DNA from: Haloplanus rubicundus
GTDB taxonomy: Archaea > Halobacteriota > Halobacteria > Halobacteriales > Haloferacaceae
Assembly: GCF_003342675.1 (NCBI RefSeq)
Contig: NZ_CP031148.1
Coordinates: forward strand, 2,666,001 to 2,730,000
Reading direction: 5' to 3'
DNA length: 64,000 bases
This document shows, piece after piece, positions 9,966-59,733 of the stretch. The position numbers and the translations under genes were made by a program. The first letter of the stretch is position 1. Each line of letters starts with the position of its first letter. Under the pieces are notes generated by a model. It was not told the origin of the DNA, made no database searches, and saw only the letters and a program-made list of their open reading frames with translations.

Positions 9966-10465
9966 TGGTTAGCCTGAGGTCGCACGACGGGTGTGACCGC
10001 GAGAGCGAGACACTCAGCCGAAACGATCCCCCCCTCGTGGCGACGGTGCGCCGGGTTCGAGGCGCCGACCGCGTTCACACATCTATCAGTCCGTTCGCAT
10101 CATAAAGTCACGGTTTGTGATAGGAACGTGGGAGTCGGAGCGCGAACGCCGTCGCCATCTCGTCGGGAGGAATCACGCTCGGTCAGGGATTTGAACCACG
10201 GTCGCGGCGAAGCCGCTCCCTGATTCAAACTGTGCGCTTCGCTCGCTCACTAACGTTCGCTCGCTGTAGTGCTCGGTCAGGGATTTGAACCACGGTCGCG
10301 GCGAAGCCGCTCCCTGATTCAAACTGTGCGCTTCGCTCGCTCACTAACGTTCGCTCGCTGTAGTGCTCGGTCAGGGATTTGAACCACGGTCGCGGCGAAG
10401 CCGCTCCCTGATTCAAATCCCTTTCCTGCGCGTGCTTCTTCACTCACTCCGTTCGTTCAGAATCA
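9966..10465. other. Non-coding interval with tRNA-Glu relic repeats
   Basis: 500 bases without a supported gene. The first ~210 bases contain the 5' flank of the winged-helix gene and no recognised signal. From 10177 onwards the interval is made of 94-bp tandem repeats that begin with the 3' end of tRNA-Glu (see repeat entry), followed by a unique spacer up to the intact tRNA. Confidence 0.6.
10177..10417. repeat. 94-bp tandem repeats built on the tRNA-Glu 3' end
   Basis: Copies start at 10177, 10271 and 10365, exactly 94 bp apart, and are identical. The third stops matching at about 10417. Each begins with GCTCGGTCAGGGATTTGAAC, the complement of the acceptor and T-arm of the downstream tRNA-Glu, then diverges (CCACGGTCGCGG). 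After 45 bases it shows the T-arm again in the opposite orientation (CTCCCTGATTCAAA). The rest of the unit is rich in CGCTTCGCTCGC-type strings. The units cannot encode a tRNA. Confidence 0.9.
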
Positions 10466-10540
10466 TGCTCGGTCAGGGATTTGAACCCTGGTCGTCGGCT
10501 CGAAAGGCCAACATGATTGGCCGGACTACACCAACCGAGC
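10466..10540 (-). tRNA. tRNA-Glu (anticodon UUC)
   Basis: A 75-nt cloverleaf on the minus strand. The 7-bp acceptor GCTCGGT/ACCGAGC ends with discriminator A. The anticodon stem TTGGC/GCCGA encloses the loop CTTTCGA, giving anticodon TTC. The T-arm is CAGGG-TTCAAAT-CCCTG. No intron and no encoded CCA. The 3' side is flanked by tandem relics of its own acceptor/T-arm. Confidence 0.95.
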
Positions 10541-10568
10541 GTCGCAGTTTCGACGAGGAGTGGGCCAT

Positions 10569-10576
10569 TGATAAAT
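10569..10576 (-). promoter_or_regulatory. TATA box of tRNA-Glu
   Basis: On the minus strand the octamer ATTTATCA lies 29-36 nt upstream of the mature tRNA 5' end. This is the spacing expected for an archaeal TATA element. Confidence 0.55.
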
Positions 10577-10600
10577 CCGTCTTTTTTCCTCGCGGCACGA

Positions 10601-12160
10601 TCAGGAGACGTTCGTGAACTCGAAGCGGGCGCCCCCCGCCTCGCTCTCGGTGACCGTCACGGTCCAGCCGTGGGCCGTCGCGATGTCTTCGACGATGCCG
10701 AGTCCGATGCCCGTCCCGTCCTCGGCCGTCGTGTAGCCGAACTCGAGGACGTGTTCGCGTTCCGACTCGGGGATACCGACGCCGTCGTCCGCGACGTAGA
10801 AGCCGTCGGGGAGTGGGCCGACCGTGATCGAGAGGGTGGGCGCGTCGTCCGTGACGCCGTGTTCCACGCTATCGTCGGCCTCCGGCCGACTGTCAGTGGA
10901 GCCATGCTCCACACAATTCCGAAACAGGTTCTCGAACAACTGCTGGATGCGGGAGCGGTCGCCGCCGATTTCGGCGTCGATATCGACCGTCAGCGTGGCG
11001 TTCGCCGTCTCGACCTGCGACCAGGCGTCGGCCGCGACGGCGGCCACGTCGAGGTCGACGGGATCGTCGACGGTCCGACCGGCCCGCGCGAGCAACAGGA
11101 GGTCGTCGACGATGGCCCGCATCCGTTCGTGGGAGTCCGTGATGTGTGAGATTGCCTCGCTGTCACACTCCTCGTTCACCATCTCGAGCCACCCCTCGGC
11201 GACGTTGAGGGGGTTCCGAAGGTCGTGGGAGACGAGCGTCGCGAACTTCTCCAGTCGCTCGTTCTGGTGGCGGAGGCGGTCCTCGGTCAGTTCCCGTTCG
11301 AGTGCGACGCTCACCCATCGACCCATCAGGTCGACGAGCGTGACCTCCCAGTCCGAGAACGACTCGGTCCGTGCGTCCGTGTCGTAGAAGCAAAACGTCC
11401 CGTACACCTCGTCGTCGACGACGACCGGCGTGCCGAGATAGCAATTGATCCCAAGCTCCCGATTCCCGGCCCGCTCGGCGAGTTCGGAGGCTTCCTCGGC
11501 GAGGTTCGCGAGGACGAGCGTCTCCTCGGTGAGGACGACCCGCTCGCAGTTCGTCACCGACAGGTCGACGGTGTCACCCGCCGACAGGTCGCCGGGGGAT
11601 CGAACCACCTCGAAGACGTACTCGTCGCCCCGGACGCGGGACAGCGTCCCGTGGGACGTATCGAGGACACGCTGGCCGATGCGCAGGAGGTCGTCGACCC
11701 GATCCTCGAAGGACGACTCCCGGGCGGCAATGGCCTCGTATATCTCGCGGAGGACCGTCTCACGGGTCACGATCCGGTCGTGACGGCGGCGGCGTTCGGT
11801 GATGTCGCGGAAGCAGACCGAGAGCCCCGTCTCGGAGGGATACGCCCGAACCTCCAACCACGCGTCGAGTGGCTCGTAGCGTGCGTCGAACGAGACTTGC
11901 TCCCCGGTCCGCATCGCCTCGCGATACTTCGACTCGAACGTCGTGCCGGTCGCCTCGGGGACGAGTTCCCAGAGGCTCCGCCCGCGGAGTTCGTCGACGG
12001 TGAACGACTCGCCGGCCGCGTCAGAGATGATGGCGCGAGCCGTCTCGTTCAGGTACGTGAACTGCCAGTCGGTGTCGAGACCGAAGACCCCGTCGGTCAT
12101 CCGATCCAGAACCCGTTCGAGGGTCGCATCGGAGACGTGACCGTCGCGTTCGTCAGCCAT
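10601..12160 (-). CDS. PAS-GAF sensor histidine kinase
   Basis: A 519-residue soluble sensor kinase. Residues about 10-125 form a PAS domain (DGVFGLDTDWQFTYLN, ending in the typical VCFRDITERRR). Residues about 140-290 form a GAF domain (LGTPVVVDDEVYGTFCFYDT). A HisKA dimerisation helix follows, with the phosphoacceptor in LVSHDLRNPLN (His312). The C-terminal HATPase domain shows an N box (ENLFRNCVEH), a G1 box (VADDGVGIP) and a G2 box (GTGIGLGIVEDI). No membrane segment is visible, so it probably senses a cytoplasmic signal. No response regulator is adjacent, as is common for haloarchaeal orphan kinases. Downstream lies tRNA-Glu; upstream is a hairpin element. Confidence 0.93.
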   Translation of the reverse strand: MADERDGHVSDATLERVLDRMTDGVFGLDTDWQFTYLNETARAIISDAAGESFTVDELRGRSLWELVPEATGTTFESKYREAMRTGEQVSFDARYEPLDAWLEVRAYPSETGLSVCFRDITERRRRHDRIVTRETVLREIYEAIAARESSFEDRVDDLLRIGQRVLDTSHGTLSRVRGDEYVFEVVRSPGDLSAGDTVDLSVTNCERVVLTEETLVLANLAEEASELAERAGNRELGINCYLGTPVVVDDEVYGTFCFYDTDARTESFSDWEVTLVDLMGRWVSVALERELTEDRLRHQNERLEKFATLVSHDLRNPLNVAEGWLEMVNEECDSEAISHITDSHERMRAIVDDLLLLARAGRTVDDPVDLDVAAVAADAWSQVETANATLTVDIDAEIGGDRSRIQQLFENLFRNCVEHGSTDSRPEADDSVEHGVTDDAPTLSITVGPLPDGFYVADDGVGIPESEREHVLEFGYTTAEDGTGIGLGIVEDIATAHGWTVTVTESEAGGARFEFTNVS

Positions 12161-12239
12161 GCTCCGTCACCGGGGACCAGTTCATCTTATAAAGGATGCA
12201 CCACCCACGCTGAAAAGGTCACCGGTGGTCGGGACCGCG

Positions 12240-12323
12240 CATACTGTCGGCTGTACCTGTTTCGAGATAGCCGCCACTCCGGGGTGGCGGCTATCTCGAT
12301 TGACGTACAGCCGGCAGTTTCAG
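12240..12323. repeat. Long two-stem hairpin element at the 3' end of a lipoprotein gene
   Basis: A perfect 15-bp inner stem (12263-12277 with 12284-12298) has a tiny loop. A six-base internal loop on each side separates it from a perfect 8-bp outer stem (12249-12256 with 12305-12312). Beyond it, ACTG/CAGT pairing extends after a 2x2 mismatch. The right end ...GTTTCAG contains the TGA stop of the minus-strand gene 12320-12892. The architecture matches the element at 33604-33688 although the stem sequences differ. Confidence 0.85.
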
Positions 12324-12892
12324 GCCGAGGTGACCTCGAACGTCGTCGAGACGCGCTCGGACGTGCGATGCAGCTGGAGTTCGCCGATGGCGGCCGTCGC
12401 GGTCAGGTCCCCGAGGGGCCACTCGGCCGTCTCGAACGTCATGGCGTCCTCCCACGTGTAGAGACCCGGGGAGTCGACCCGCCGGTCGACGTCGCGGAAC
12501 CGACGGACCACCAGGTCGTCGTCGTGGACGATATCGACGCCCTCCTTGAGGTTGATCGTCCCCTCCGGGATACGAATCCGGTATCGAAAGGCGACGACGG
12601 CGGGTTGCCCGCGCCGGACGCTCTCGATCCGGTTCGCGGTCAGATCACCCGCCTCCGACCACGTCGAGACGAGACCCACGTCGAGCAACTGCGGGAGATA
12701 CCGCCGCTCCGGCGGCGTCCGCGTCGGCACCGGCGTGTCCGTGGGCGTCGGCGTGGGCGACGCGGTGAGCGTCGCCGTCGTCGTCGACGCCGCCGTCCCC
12801 TCGTCGATCGGGGGCGGCGACCCCGCCGAGCCACAGCCCGCGAGGCCGGAGAGGGCGGCCGCCGTGCCCGCCAGAAACGCGCGTCGATCCAT
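12320..12892 (-). CDS. Tat-exported lipoprotein of unknown function
   Basis: A 190-residue protein from ATG 12890-12892. The frame is open nine codons upstream, but this ATG puts a twin-arginine signal (MDRRAFLAGTAAALSG) at the N-terminus, followed by a lipobox (LAGC) with the lipidated cysteine at about residue 20. A Thr/Pro-rich linker (TPTPTPTDTPVPT) follows, typical of haloarchaeal surface lipoproteins. The mature domain is about 125 residues and beta-rich. It would be anchored outside the cell membrane. No homologous fold recognised. The stop codon is part of the hairpin 12240-12323. Confidence 0.75.
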   Translation of the reverse strand: MDRRAFLAGTAAALSGLAGCGSAGSPPPIDEGTAASTTTATLTASPTPTPTDTPVPTRTPPERRYLPQLLDVGLVSTWSEAGDLTANRIESVRRGQPAVVAFRYRIRIPEGTINLKEGVDIVHDDDLVVRRFRDVDRRVDSPGLYTWEDAMTFETAEWPLGDLTATAAIGELQLHRTSERVSTTFEVTSA

Positions 12893-13085
12893 GGCCTCCG
12901 GTGTGGGAGTCAGGGGCATAAGCGTTCGTCATATCGACCGGCCGGAGCGGACTTCGCGGGGGCTGAGGGGCGTGCAGGGGACCGGCATCGGCGGCGGGAG
13001 CGGTCGGTCGTGGGGTCGTGACGGCGGGCAGCGGCAGGGAGGGTTGGAAAACGAACTTTACGCTCGCGGCTCGCTACACGAACGT

Positions 13086-13487
13086 ATGTATCGACGTCGC
13101 GTACTCTCGAGCGTCGGCCCCGTCCTCCTCGGCCCCACGGCCGGCTGTCTCGGCGGATCGAGCGGCAGCGACGCGCCCGGCACCGCGGGCCTGCCGACCC
13201 GCCTCTGGTTCGAACGCGTCGAACTGACCGAGTCCGAACGGAACGCCGTCGACCCCATCGTGTTCGCCGACCTGCCCGCCGCGGAACGGAAACTCGTCGC
13301 TACGGCGCTCGACGAGGGGGAGTACGTCGTCGAGAGCGAGGCGGCGCCGCCGGCGCTCGAAACGCTCCGCGACCGGATCGAACGTCGGACGGACGGCGGG
13401 CTGGAGGTGTACCTCCGACGCGATCGGACCTACTACCGCGTCGGATTCGCCGAGGGCGACCACATCGTCGCCCATCCGTCGCAGTGA
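13086..13487 (+). CDS. Small predicted lipoprotein
   Basis: A 133-residue protein beginning MYRRRVLSSVGPVLLG and reaching a lipobox-like TAGC about 20 residues in, followed by Gly/Ser. It is most likely a Tat-type lipoprotein with an RRR-x-L signal. The mature part is acidic and mixed alpha/beta (LPAAERKLVATALDEGEYVVES, LEVYLRRDRTYYRVGF). ATG 13086 was preferred because an A/T box (AACTTTACG, 13053-13061) lies about 27 nt upstream and because it starts the signal peptide. The longer upstream frame is low-complexity. It is divergent from the other lipoprotein gene. Function unknown. Confidence 0.7.
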   Translation: MYRRRVLSSVGPVLLGPTAGCLGGSSGSDAPGTAGLPTRLWFERVELTESERNAVDPIVFADLPAAERKLVATALDEGEYVVESEAAPPALETLRDRIERRTDGGLEVYLRRDRTYYRVGFAEGDHIVAHPSQ

Positions 13488-13524
13488 GCGGCCTGTTCGT
13501 CGGCGACCCACCGCCGAAGCGTCG

Positions 13525-13659
13525 TTACGGCGCTTCCCAGCCCTCGTCGCGGTGCTCGTCCGCGACGATCTTGTCGCGGAACATGTCGATGATGCTCGTG
13601 AACTCCGTCATCTCCTGGTGCGGAACGTCCACGTAGTAGAGGGTGTTCCGTCCGTTCGG
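13525..13659 (-). pseudogene. 3' remnant of an unidentified gene
   Basis: The minus-strand frame reads ...NTLYYVDVPHQEMTEF and continues through IIDMFRDKIVADEHRDEG to a TAA at 13525-13527. It is coding-like (acidic, good haloarchaeal composition) but is cut off upstream by a stop at 13660-13662, about 44 codons in. The only internal ATG would give a 28-residue peptide. It looks like the C-terminus of a larger protein whose 5' part was lost, close to the RHH/PIN pair and tRNA relics. Parent gene not recognised. Confidence 0.45.
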
Positions 13660-13775
13660 TCACAACCGTGGATGGGCAGTGTCGGATAGAAAGTGTTTTA
13701 GGAGTGATACTCTCTCAGGATTCGTCGCGGTGGTTCGCGAGTAGGACCGATTCGGGCATCCGCTTCGGTGTTATC

Positions 13776-13783
13776 TTTATAAA
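13776..13783 (+). promoter_or_regulatory. TATA box of the RHH/PIN pair
   Basis: TTTATAAA in an A/T-rich patch, 17-24 nt upstream of ATG 13800 and 29-36 nt upstream of ATG 13812. The spacing fits a leaderless transcript and slightly favours the second ATG. Confidence 0.55.
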
Positions 13784-13799
13784 TTCGTAGGTACAACGT

Positions 13800-14117
13800 A
13801 TGTACAAGTGGATGGTAATGACGCGAAAAGTCAACTTCAGGCTGCCGGACGAACTGGTCGAGAAAGCGGACGTAGCGGCCGAAGTCTCGCACAAGAACCG
13901 CACAGAGATAATTAAAGAAGCGCTCCAGCAGTACCTCCAGGAAGTCGAAGACGACGAGAAGTTCAAAGAAGCGGTCGTCGAACTCTACCTCGACGACGAA
14001 ATCGGATTCGAGACCTTGAAACAGTTCATCGGCCGGCAGGACGCCGAAAGCGTTCGGGCCTCCAAAGCACTACTCGTACAGGGCGAAGACTTGGCCGACG
14101 AACTCGCCGGACTCTGA
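13800..14117 (+). CDS. Ribbon-helix-helix antitoxin-like regulator
   Basis: A 105-residue protein. After a short variable N-terminus comes an RHH signature: a strand (RKVNFRLPDELVEKAD), then helix, turn and helix (SHKNRTEIIKEALQQYLQEV). The C-terminal half is acidic and helical. Starts at 13800, 13812 and 13818 are all in frame; the TATA spacing suits 13812 best. It lies six bases upstream of a PIN-domain gene, the order expected for an antitoxin/toxin pair, and should bind its own promoter and the PIN protein. A/T content is higher than in neighbouring core genes, suggesting acquisition with the adjacent tRNA relics. Confidence 0.82.
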   Translation: MYKWMVMTRKVNFRLPDELVEKADVAAEVSHKNRTEIIKEALQQYLQEVEDDEKFKEAVVELYLDDEIGFETLKQFIGRQDAESVRASKALLVQGEDLADELAGL

Positions 14118-14123
14118 GACTCG

Positions 14124-14615
14124 ATGATCGTCGCCGACACCTCCGCACTCGTCTCCCTCACCGCAGCCGACACCCTTGATCTGCTTCTCGAAGAATTCGA
14201 TGTCCACACCACTGAAACAGTGATCAAGGAACTGGAGGATCTAGCCAGCTACGGAGACAAAACAGCCGAACACGCACAGCAAGTCTTGGGCCGGAAAGAA
14301 CGGACAACGATACGTGAAGTAGATACGCTCGAGTACCAGTCCTCGCGGGTCGATGAGGGAGAGGGTAGCTGCATACAACTTACGCGGGATATAGCGGCTG
14401 ACTTCTTGATTACTGACGACCTTCGTGCCTTGCCAGAACTCCAGACCCTCACCGAAACACGGATCGCCATCTCACCCATCGTCCTCAAAGCCCTCGTCGA
14501 GCGCGGCGTCCTCGCGCGCGGAGAAGCGCTTGAGCGGCTGGACGACGCGGCCGAAGAACGGGACTGGTTGGAAGCACCGATCTATCGGCGGGCGAGGGGA
14601 CTGTTCGACGAATAG
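14124..14615 (+). CDS. PIN domain protein, putative VapC-type toxin
   Basis: A 163-residue PIN-fold protein. The acidic cluster expected of PIN ribonucleases is present: Asp5 (ADTS), Glu36 (VIKEL), Glu80 (DEGEGSC) and Asp98/Asp99 (LITDD). It is longer than typical VapC, with a C-terminal helical extension (residues 115-163). This matches a group of archaeal PIN proteins often paired with RHH or UPF0175-like partners. It is likely an Mg2+-dependent RNase held inactive by the upstream RHH protein. Codon choice is less G/C-biased than in the ribosomal cluster, in line with horizontal origin. The tRNA-Gly relics begin immediately downstream. Confidence 0.82.
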   Translation: MIVADTSALVSLTAADTLDLLLEEFDVHTTETVIKELEDLASYGDKTAEHAQQVLGRKERTTIREVDTLEYQSSRVDEGEGSCIQLTRDIAADFLITDDLRALPELQTLTETRIAISPIVLKALVERGVLARGEALERLDDAAEERDWLEAPIYRRARGLFDE

Positions 14616-15000
14616 GCGGGCTGGGATTTCGAACTACGGTCGTTTCGCCCTCAGTCGTTGAACTCCTGAAAACGCGCTGGCTGGGATCGTGAACCGAAAT
14701 CAGACGTGCTCGCTCCCTGCGGTCGCTGCGCGCGACTGGTAGGGTTCAAATCAGGTGCGATTTCGCCTCGAAACGCGACTAGCTGGCTCACGGCTACGCC
14801 GTTCGCCGTTCCGAGATGCGCACTCCGTTCGCATCTCGCTTCGCTCGTCGGTTTGCTTCGGCAGAAATGCGCTGGCTGGGATTTGAACCACGGTCGCTCT
14901 GCTCGCTTCGCTCGCGACGCTCCCTGATTCAAATCCCGAGGGGACGATTTTCAGGATTCAGGACCGCTCGCTTCGCTCGCGGTCGTTAGAATCCTGAAAA
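14616..15000. repeat. Relics of the tRNA-Gly 3' end with palindromic modules
   Basis: 385 bases without a gene. Three degenerate copies of the acceptor/T-arm end of tRNA-Gly (GCGCTGGCTGGGATTTGAACC in the intact gene) occur near 14609, 14672 and 14871. The 14672 copy and the intact gene share the same flank (CCTGAAAA, then C or T, before GCGCTGG). The 14871 copy is followed by CCACGGTCGC and later CGCTCCCTGATTCAAATCCC, the module also found in the tRNA-Glu repeats. This is the pattern left by repeated insertion and excision at a tRNA 3' end. Confidence 0.75.
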
Positions 15001-15001
15001 T
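14947..15001. repeat. Palindrome abutting tRNA-Gly
   Basis: A perfect 13-bp inverted repeat (14947-14959 with 14989-15001), with a further GACCGC/GCGGTC stem inside and a CG-rich loop. On the minus strand the right arm begins directly after the tRNA discriminator base and gives ATTTTCAG, so it may serve as the tRNA terminator. Confidence 0.7.
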
Positions 15002-15071
15002 GCGCTGGCTGGGATTTGAACCCAGGTTGTGACCATGGCAAGGTCACGTGATACCACTACACTACCAGCGC
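15001..15071 (-). tRNA. tRNA-Gly (anticodon GCC)
   Basis: A 71-nt cloverleaf on the minus strand. The acceptor GCGCTGG/CCAGCGC ends with discriminator A. The anticodon stem GTGACC/GGTCAC encloses TTGCCAT, giving anticodon GCC. The T-arm is CTGGG-TTCAAAT-CCCAG. The D-arm contains AGTGGTA. No intron and no encoded CCA. Partial copies of its 3' half lie downstream. Confidence 0.95.
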
Positions 15072-58942: not shown

Positions 58943-59733
58943 TCACCACTGCTCCGAGACGCGTTCCCCGCCGGAGACTTCGGGGATCATCACGTCGTCG
59001 GCGCCGGCGTGGCGGGCGACCGACTCGTAGGTTTCGTCGCCGACGCGGACGATCACGGTCAGGTCCGGCGCCAACTGCGTCGCGAGGAGGGCGATCTGAA
59101 CGTTCACGTTCGAGTCGTCGATGGCGGCGACGAGCGTGTCGGCGCGGTCGATGCCGGCGTCGCGCGTCCCCGTCGACGCCAAAGAGGTCGGCGTCGAGGA
59201 CGCGTTCGTACTGCGCAGGGCCGTGTTCGACGACGTACTGCGCAGGGCCGTGTTCGACGACGTACTGCGCAGGGCCGTGTTCGACGACGACGATCACGCG
59301 GCCGCGCTCGCGCGACCGTTCGGCCGAACATCCCGTAGCCACAGATGATGGTGTGCTCGCTGATCGACGTCCGTTCTCGTTGGTCTTCCACGCGTCTGAG
59401 TTCCTCCTTGATCTGCCCGCCGAACGCCGCCGTCAGCGCCGTCTCGCCCGTCCAGAGTACAGCCACGACGAGCGCCACGCGGACGACGATGGCGAACGCC
59501 TTGACGCGCTGGACCGGCCCCGACGCGGTCCGGTGGTGGATCGCGATGCTCGACGGATCGAGCAGCCAGAACGCCGCGTCGACGACGCCGACGCCCCAAA
59601 CGAGGACGAACCCGGCGACGACGACGCCCACGAGCGTCAGGGCGGGGCGAGCGACGCGCTGGAGTAACCACCGGTTCGCGACGATGGGGACGGTCGGCCG
59701 GGTTATCACTTGCCCCTGGCGGATTCGACGCAA
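58943..59733 (-). pseudogene. Frameshifted RCK-type potassium-channel-like protein
   Basis: The coding similarity runs through three frames. Frame 1 (from about 59709-59733) gives two hydrophobic regions, IKEELRRVEDQRERTSISEH, then TIICGYGMFGRTVA, the start of a TrkA-N/RCK NAD-binding fold. Frame 2 continues as ERSRERGRVIVVVEHGPAQY with a triplicated nonapeptide, then VLDADLFGVDGDA. Frame 3 finishes TRDAGIDRADTLVAAIDDSN...ADDVMIPEVSGGERVSEQW. Two frameshifts lie near 59315-59330 and about 59160-59180. The membrane part has no TVGYG filter. A sequencing error is possible but would have to occur twice. Confidence 0.75.
59206..59286. repeat. 27-bp unit repeated three times in tandem
   Basis: Identical 27-bp units at 59206-59232, 59233-59259 and 59260-59286, inside the RCK pseudogene. 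On the minus strand each unit encodes VVEHGPAQY, so the triplication itself preserves the frame. It duplicates the strand and loop just after the expected NAD-binding beta-2 position. Confidence 0.95.

Follow-up and report, generated by a model that had tools for sequence, protein, structure and literature searches.

The window analysed here, a 64,000-nt stretch of the Haloplanus rubicundus genome, carries genes for tRNA-Glu(TTC) and tRNA-Gly(GCC), and behind both lies the same short palindromic sequence, set between pieces of tRNA T-arm. How does one sequence come to stand at the 3' ends of two different tRNA genes, and is it a mobile element, a functional part of the tRNA transcript, or the residue of something larger?

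Repeat units at the two tRNA genes

Read in the sense of the tRNA, a unit runs from T3 (the 20 nt of the tRNA 3' end, from the T-loop to the discriminator) through a spacer hairpin, an inverted T-arm and an inner segment to a second copy of T3, here called T3'. The inverted part consists of T-loop plus T-stem, GGGATTTGAA, and splits the unit into the spacer (about 40–60 bp) and the inner segment, each of which forms a hairpin on the tRNA-sense strand. The inner segment is conserved and palindromic, TCAGGGAG-core-CGACCGTGG, with ends that are universal across the class and cores that vary. Units span 72–130 bp and are non-coding, with unit bodies of 92 bp (median) that hold no cassette genes, and arrays contain one to four of them. 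Other inner families, with different ends, occupy the equivalent position at some loci (L202, L163, L171, L220, L227 and L240): CCACGCGAGAC...GTCTCGCAATCGGG, CCCAGAGGAC...GTCCTCGTGG and CCCTACCAGTCGCG...

The arrays in the window are given in Table 1. The original prediction of a module common to the two tRNA genes proved to be real: CTCCCTGATTCAAA has four exact copies (0 mismatches) at 10216, 10310, 10404 and 14920, where shuffled sequences give an expectation of 0.08, and CCACGGTCGCGGCGAAGCCGCTCCCTGA is at 10196, 10290 and 10384, with its Gly counterpart at 14888–14927. The Glu array of three units is made of two identical 94-bp repeats and a proximal unit with another spacer; tandem repeat detection (TRF) reports the 94-bp array at 10177–10417 as 2.6 copies with 100% matches, and with the spacer hairpin included, the repeating unit exceeds the module in size. 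Each 94-bp unit had been described as flanked by T-arms in both orientations, and the T3' copies agree with this, but the inverted arm is complete only in the proximal unit and is reduced to TTCAAA in the distal two. The Gly copy does have outer sequence specific to tRNA-Gly, its T3 copy (from 14868) being perfect, and the array there comprises one intact and two decayed units, reaching down to 14613. Immediately past the decayed Gly units lies a gene for an RHH_1 (CopG-type) protein followed by a 163-aa ORF without a Pfam match (13800–14615, plus strand), a toxin–antitoxin-like layout.

Table 1. Features of the tRNA-Glu(TTC) and tRNA-Gly(GCC) arrays in the window (window coordinates).
Feature	Position	Strand	Basis
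tRNA-Glu(TTC); T3 = 10466–10485	10466–10540	-	ARAGORN, Rfam RF00005
Glu unit 1 spacer, GA-type hairpin on tRNA-sense strand	10422–10465	-	sequence, unit parsing
Glu unit 1 inverted T-arm, complete (TTCAAATCCC)	10412–10421	+	
Glu unit 1 inner segment, type A, TCAGGGAGCGGCTTCGCCGCGACCGTGG in tRNA sense	10384–10411	-	sequence, fold
Glu T3' copy 1, 20/20 vs. tRNA 3' end	10364–10383	-	
Glu unit 2 spacer	10324–10363	-	
Glu unit 2 inverted T-arm, truncated to TTCAAA	10318–10323	+	
Glu unit 2 inner segment	10290–10317	-	
Glu T3' copy 2	10270–10289	-	
Glu unit 3 spacer, identical to unit 2 spacer	10230–10269	-	
Glu unit 3 inverted T-arm, truncated	10224–10229	+	
Glu unit 3 inner segment	10196–10223	-	
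Glu T3' copy 3, 19/20	10176–10195	-	
tRNA-Gly(GCC); T3 = 15001–15020	15001–15071	-	ARAGORN, Rfam
Gly unit 1 spacer, palindrome TTTTCAGGATTC...GAATCCTGAAAA, core GCGAGCGAAGCGAGC	14938–15000	-	
Gly unit 1 inverted T-arm, complete (TTCAAATCCC)	14928–14937	+	
Gly unit 1 inner segment, type A, long core	14888–14927	-	
Gly T3' copy 1, 20/20	14868–14887	-	
Gly unit 2 spacer, long, GA-type hairpins	14753–14867	-	
Gly unit 2 inverted T-arm (TTCAAATC)	14745–14752	+	
Gly unit 2 inner segment, another inner type (CCCTACCAGTCGCGCGCAGCGA...)	14693–14744	-	
Gly T3'' copy 2, decayed, 15/20	14673–14692	-	
Gly T3''' copy 3, decayed, then CTACGGTCG remnant	14613–14632	-	

Distribution among haloarchaea

Across the H. 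rubicundus genome, units follow 21 of the 45 tRNA genes under a strict rule (a T3' copy matching at 16 or more of 20 positions within 380 nt of the tRNA) and 23 of the 45 by eye, and a control using the T3 of another tRNA gave 0/74. All 13 exact type-A copies in this genome lie inside tRNA arrays. The proposed search of haloarchaeal genomes, with the flanking tRNAs listed, showed that 219 of the 391 Halobacteria genomes carry the exact inner pattern and that 68 of the 86 genera are represented among them, several genera being without the exact type-A module; the reversed pattern, used as a control, had no match in the 391 genomes. Type-A modules are present in the type strains of Haloferax denitrificans and H. 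sulfurifontis. A scan of all prokaryotes returned at least 120 stretches, and among the matches listed all were haloarchaeal according to their record titles, except for one metagenome-assembled genome labelled only as Euryarchaeota. The inner segment was absent from genomes of other classes in a sample of the phylum.

Among 162 copies at fetched loci (a set in which a few loci are present twice), 147 follow a tRNA gene at a distance of under 500 bp (median 55 bp), all in a single orientation. They adjoin 32 isoacceptors and carry tRNA-specific outer arms, so the association of one module with different tRNA 3' ends is far wider than the two cases that were first claimed. The remaining copies are mostly at contig edges, beside partial or intron-bearing tRNAs, or next to T3 fragments cut by insertions. 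A dense cluster of eight low-scoring tRNA genes, virus- or plasmid-like, occurs on a secondary contig (G240:C1:401600-403110). Rfam covariance models scored only tRNAs above the gathering threshold and gave no weaker match on the units, and no prior description of the units was found in the open-access literature searched.

Outer arms follow the neighbouring tRNA

When 157 modules were compared with their tRNAs, T3' showed 0.90–1.00 identity per position over all 20 positions, and the inverted arm reached at least 0.90 for the T-loop and the first two stem bases, falling to chance level by the acceptor stem, so that only about 10 nt (T-loop plus T-stem) match. At the variable T-loop base (A or G), the inverted arm and the adjacent tRNA have the same base in a fraction of 0.92 (255 units), where other tRNAs would give 0.53. 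In units with a diverged T3', the arm tends to agree with the tRNA, a count that comes partly from a one-base insertion in the T-loop of T3'. A full inverted T3, with an inverted acceptor stem, was also considered (own-tRNA exact 5-mers, 22/255 vs. 5/255), but the similarity to the own acceptor stem is weak and it is therefore not claimed. The one-base insertion, which produces an 8-nt T-loop (GGTTCRnnATCC), recurs in about 21 of 255 units, in T3' copies of Thr, Leu, Gly, His, Phe and Pro tRNAs (e.g., L051, L065 and L126), and is possibly convergent.

Strand-specific hairpins

The hairpins are strongly biased to one strand. A tandem G.A hairpin motif (GARC...GYGA) is carried by 98 inner segments in tRNA sense and by none in antisense, and by 124 spacers against 5; four of its five occurrences in the window are inside the Glu and Gly arrays. 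The sense strand gives the inner segment its better fold in 89% of the 149 units, and the 5-bp core stem covaries, with G.U pairs outnumbering A.C by 7 to 0 among 30 distinct cores. For the Glu module, the predicted fold as single-stranded DNA has −18.9 kcal/mol (z = −6.4). The bias toward sense-strand hairpins, together with the core-stem covariation, indicates that one strand matters, and the folds predicted would suit single-stranded DNA and RNA alike. Pairing of the inverted arm as RNA was considered as well and is unsupported, since the mismatches of the arm do not favour G.U over A.C (46 vs. 42).

Gain, loss and reshuffling of units

A change in copy number between strains had been proposed as a test, and sister species do differ in both the content and the number of units. 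In the case of tRNA-Glu(CTC), the sequence that follows T3' in H. rubicundus (L007) is the sequence that follows T3 in the unit-free sister species G135 (L180). At tRNA-Ser(TGA), H. rubicundus has three units (L218) and G240 none (L262), the difference being exact at T3, and at tRNA-Ala(GGC) two tandem units (L204) correspond to one in G240 (L247). Array content at tRNA-Val(TAC) differs in most of 12 congeneric species, some of them without a unit, and the flanking genes are conserved in several. What comes and goes is the whole segment from T3 to T3' (spacer, inverted arm and inner segment), rather than just the CCACGG...CTCCCTGA module. Absent sites do not prove insertion, because direct T3 repeats of about 20 bp also permit deletion and duplication by ordinary recombination, and no single case establishes whether a unit was inserted or deleted; at tRNA-Glu(CTC), the direction is ambiguous because several congeners carry a unit, a truncated unit or a relative.

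Spacers and inner segments are also found in new combinations. The Met arrays of two Natrialbaceae (L063 and L095) have common spacers paired with different inner segments, and spacer families are common to different tRNA types, including tRNAs with different acceptor ends; tRNA-Lys(CTT) and tRNA-Lys(TTT), which have identical T3 sequences, also have a spacer in common. From such families, movement of units between tRNAs may be inferred. Copies of T3 are more decayed with distance from the tRNA: of the first two T3' copies, the proximal one is better in 23 arrays and the second in 5, with 31 tied, as would be predicted either if new units enter beside the tRNA or if gene conversion corrects the closest copy. 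Perfect tandem duplications occur (the 94-bp Glu repeat, L176, L177 and L153), and arrays common to sister species decay at different rates. At tRNA-Val(TAC) of G135 (L285), four inner segments stand head to tail, joined by a bare TTCGAA. An inner–inner junction of this kind was found in only this one of 382 genomes; the inner segment alone is therefore not routinely mobile, and it was rejected as an independent element.

Integrative elements, viruses and plasmids

Ordinary integrative elements use the same tRNA genes in a different way. In G240, tRNA-Glu is separated from its array by a 10-kb element that encodes a Phage_integrase and has an att site of 49 nt; the array, though displaced by about 10 kb, is intact, as is the tRNA, and a second element, at a tRNA-Thr gene, has an att site of 17 nt. 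The element side of attR carries no adjacent module in either case. The units had been thought to differ from simple att-site duplications, and the position of these elements between tRNA and array, with other att lengths, bears this out. Of the features expected of att duplication, a duplicated tRNA 3' end around inserted DNA is present in the units, and an integrase gene within the inserted DNA is absent.

Searches of IMG/VR and of phage and plasmid collections, by pattern and by BLAST, did not find the module beyond one half-module match in IMG/VR (L190), which lies inside a coding gene and is therefore ascribed to chance. A search for virus attP sites using the Met and Val T3 sequences gave nothing useful. 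Neither a recombinase, transposase or integrase gene linked to the units nor a larger autonomous element with the ends of a unit was found. In Haloterrigena salina (L044, 1–3300), a 3.1-kb insert encoding an ORC/CDC6-like ATPase is located between tRNA-Val and the array; it was considered as an autonomous version and rejected, as it adjoins a unit and is not inside one, and a short ORF suspected to be an integrase remnant matches no Pfam family.

Discussion

The reading that we favour, tentatively, is that the units are non-autonomous DNA cassettes, comparable to those of integrons, that accumulate at tRNA 3' ends and are mobilised in trans by recombination at the T-loop. The T-loop sites (GG-TTCRAAT-CC), which are alternately direct and inverted, would be the recombination sites; the T-arm of the tRNA would serve as the entry site, as attI does, and the folded hairpin of inverted arm, inner segment and T3' would be the cassette's own site, as attC is. 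A putative tyrosine-type recombinase, encoded by the host or by an element, would act in trans to add units beside the tRNA, which would stay intact because each unit brings its own T3, and spacers and inner segments would be reshuffled at the inverted arm. The alternation of T-loop sites, the cassette-wise turnover, the reshuffling and the strand-selective folded end together lead us to favour trans-mobilised cassettes. A small non-autonomous element that targets or copies T-arms had been suggested from the window, and the tRNA-specific arms and whole-unit turnover are in keeping with that suggestion, but self-contained mobility and the copying of T-arms are unproven. That a resident recombinase shuffles very small cassettes that lack genes and bear folded single-strand sites, in a chromosomal, integron-like system that is entered at the T-arm and has its specificity rewritten for each tRNA, seems improbable.

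The units could instead be an ancient, passive satellite of tRNA genes that ectopic gene conversion, using the universal GGTTCRAATCC, has spread; slippage or homologous recombination among T3 repeats would turn them over with no enzyme of their own. We consider this a somewhat less likely possibility. T3 and T3' are indeed 20-bp direct repeats, and loss, duplication and transfer between tRNAs with the same T3 are explained by it, as seen in the perfect tandem duplications, the spacer of the two tRNA-Lys genes and the unequal decay of arrays in sister species. However, it does not account for inner ends that are universal throughout the class despite variable cores, for fixed orientation and regular unit sizes, or for spacer families that span tRNAs with different acceptor ends, and it has no need of strand-specific hairpins, so that the strand bias is left unexplained. 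That bias is what would be expected of a functional RNA, transcribed with the tRNA as a pre-tRNA trailer, in which sense hairpins act in termination, processing or stability and T-arm complementarity modulates tRNA folding. The G.A hairpins found almost exclusively in tRNA sense, the fixed orientation some 40–60 bp downstream of tRNAs, the covariation of the core stems and an inverted arm that agrees with the tRNA over T3' where the two differ are all consistent with such a role, yet 24 of the 45 H. rubicundus tRNAs have no unit by the strict rule, several genera are without the exact type-A module, content turns over between sister species, integrated elements push units about 10 kb away with tRNA and units intact, and no Rfam family matches, and we regard a trailer function as unlikely.

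A third alternative takes the units as remnants of ordinary tRNA-integrating viruses or plasmids, with T3' as attR and the unit as what internal deletion has left. The extent of T3' is that of a T-loop-type att site, and integrative elements do use these tRNAs. On the other hand, the module was not found in the virus, phage and plasmid collections searched, the G240 elements have att sites of other extents and no module beside attR, and endless convergent deletion would be needed to arrive at the same end form of 72–130 bp at 32 tRNA types, which makes this origin very improbable.

The likeness of the units to known systems is partial. Integrons have cassette arrays, attI and attC sites and the integrase IntI. 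The tRNA arrays appear similar to integron arrays in being anchored at a single entry site, with the apparently youngest unit nearest to it and cassettes that reshuffle, and in having, at the end of each unit, an imperfect hairpin that prefers one strand, its tip variable and its outer boxes conserved; they differ in that the cassettes are non-coding, the entry site is a tRNA T-arm and the boxes follow the local tRNA sequence, and no IntI was noticed beside the arrays inspected. The units are short, palindromic repeats, presumably mobilised in trans, and in being non-coding, palindromic and numerous, with trans mobilisation presumed, they are like REP/REPIN sequences and MITEs/PATEs. Unlike these, they lie only behind tRNAs and are not dispersed, their ends change with the neighbouring tRNA, and no parent transposase is linked to them; MITEs are defined by ends that are the inverted repeats of a parent transposon and by insertion at dispersed sites, and here neither was found, the inverted arms following the tRNA instead. 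REP/REPIN sequences are extragenic palindromes that are dispersed and accompanied by a RAYT (Y1 HUH) protein. Casposons also duplicate their site at tRNA 3' ends, and CRISPR insertion at the leader end has a similar leader-proximal polarity, but the units vary in size and consist of a common structured sequence rather than captured spacers. Archaeal tyrosine integrases use att sites in tRNA genes (reviewed in PMC8371274), and there too the tRNA 3' end is duplicated and the tRNA kept intact; the units differ in having no integrase or cargo, an inverted T-arm inside, and a palindromic inner segment that is conserved across tRNA types. This tRNA-bound, tRNA-tracking architecture lacks defining features of the families tested.

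The units form a family that is present in most of the haloarchaeal genera sampled and that occupies sites of virus and plasmid integration. If mobile, they would be minimal, gene-free elements that track their tRNA targets, and would point to a new recombinase; if functional as RNA, many haloarchaeal tRNAs would bear structured, fast-evolving trailers. Either way, they affect the annotation of partial tRNA copies and the borders of genomic islands in haloarchaeal genomes.

Two further repeats were observed in the window. A near-perfect long palindrome lies between two genes at 12243–12318, where weak, sub-threshold Rfam matches to miRNAs on both strands are due only to the palindrome, and a 27-bp tandem repeat, CGTACTGCGCAGGGCCGTGTTCGACGA, is present in 3.1 perfect copies at 59207–59289.
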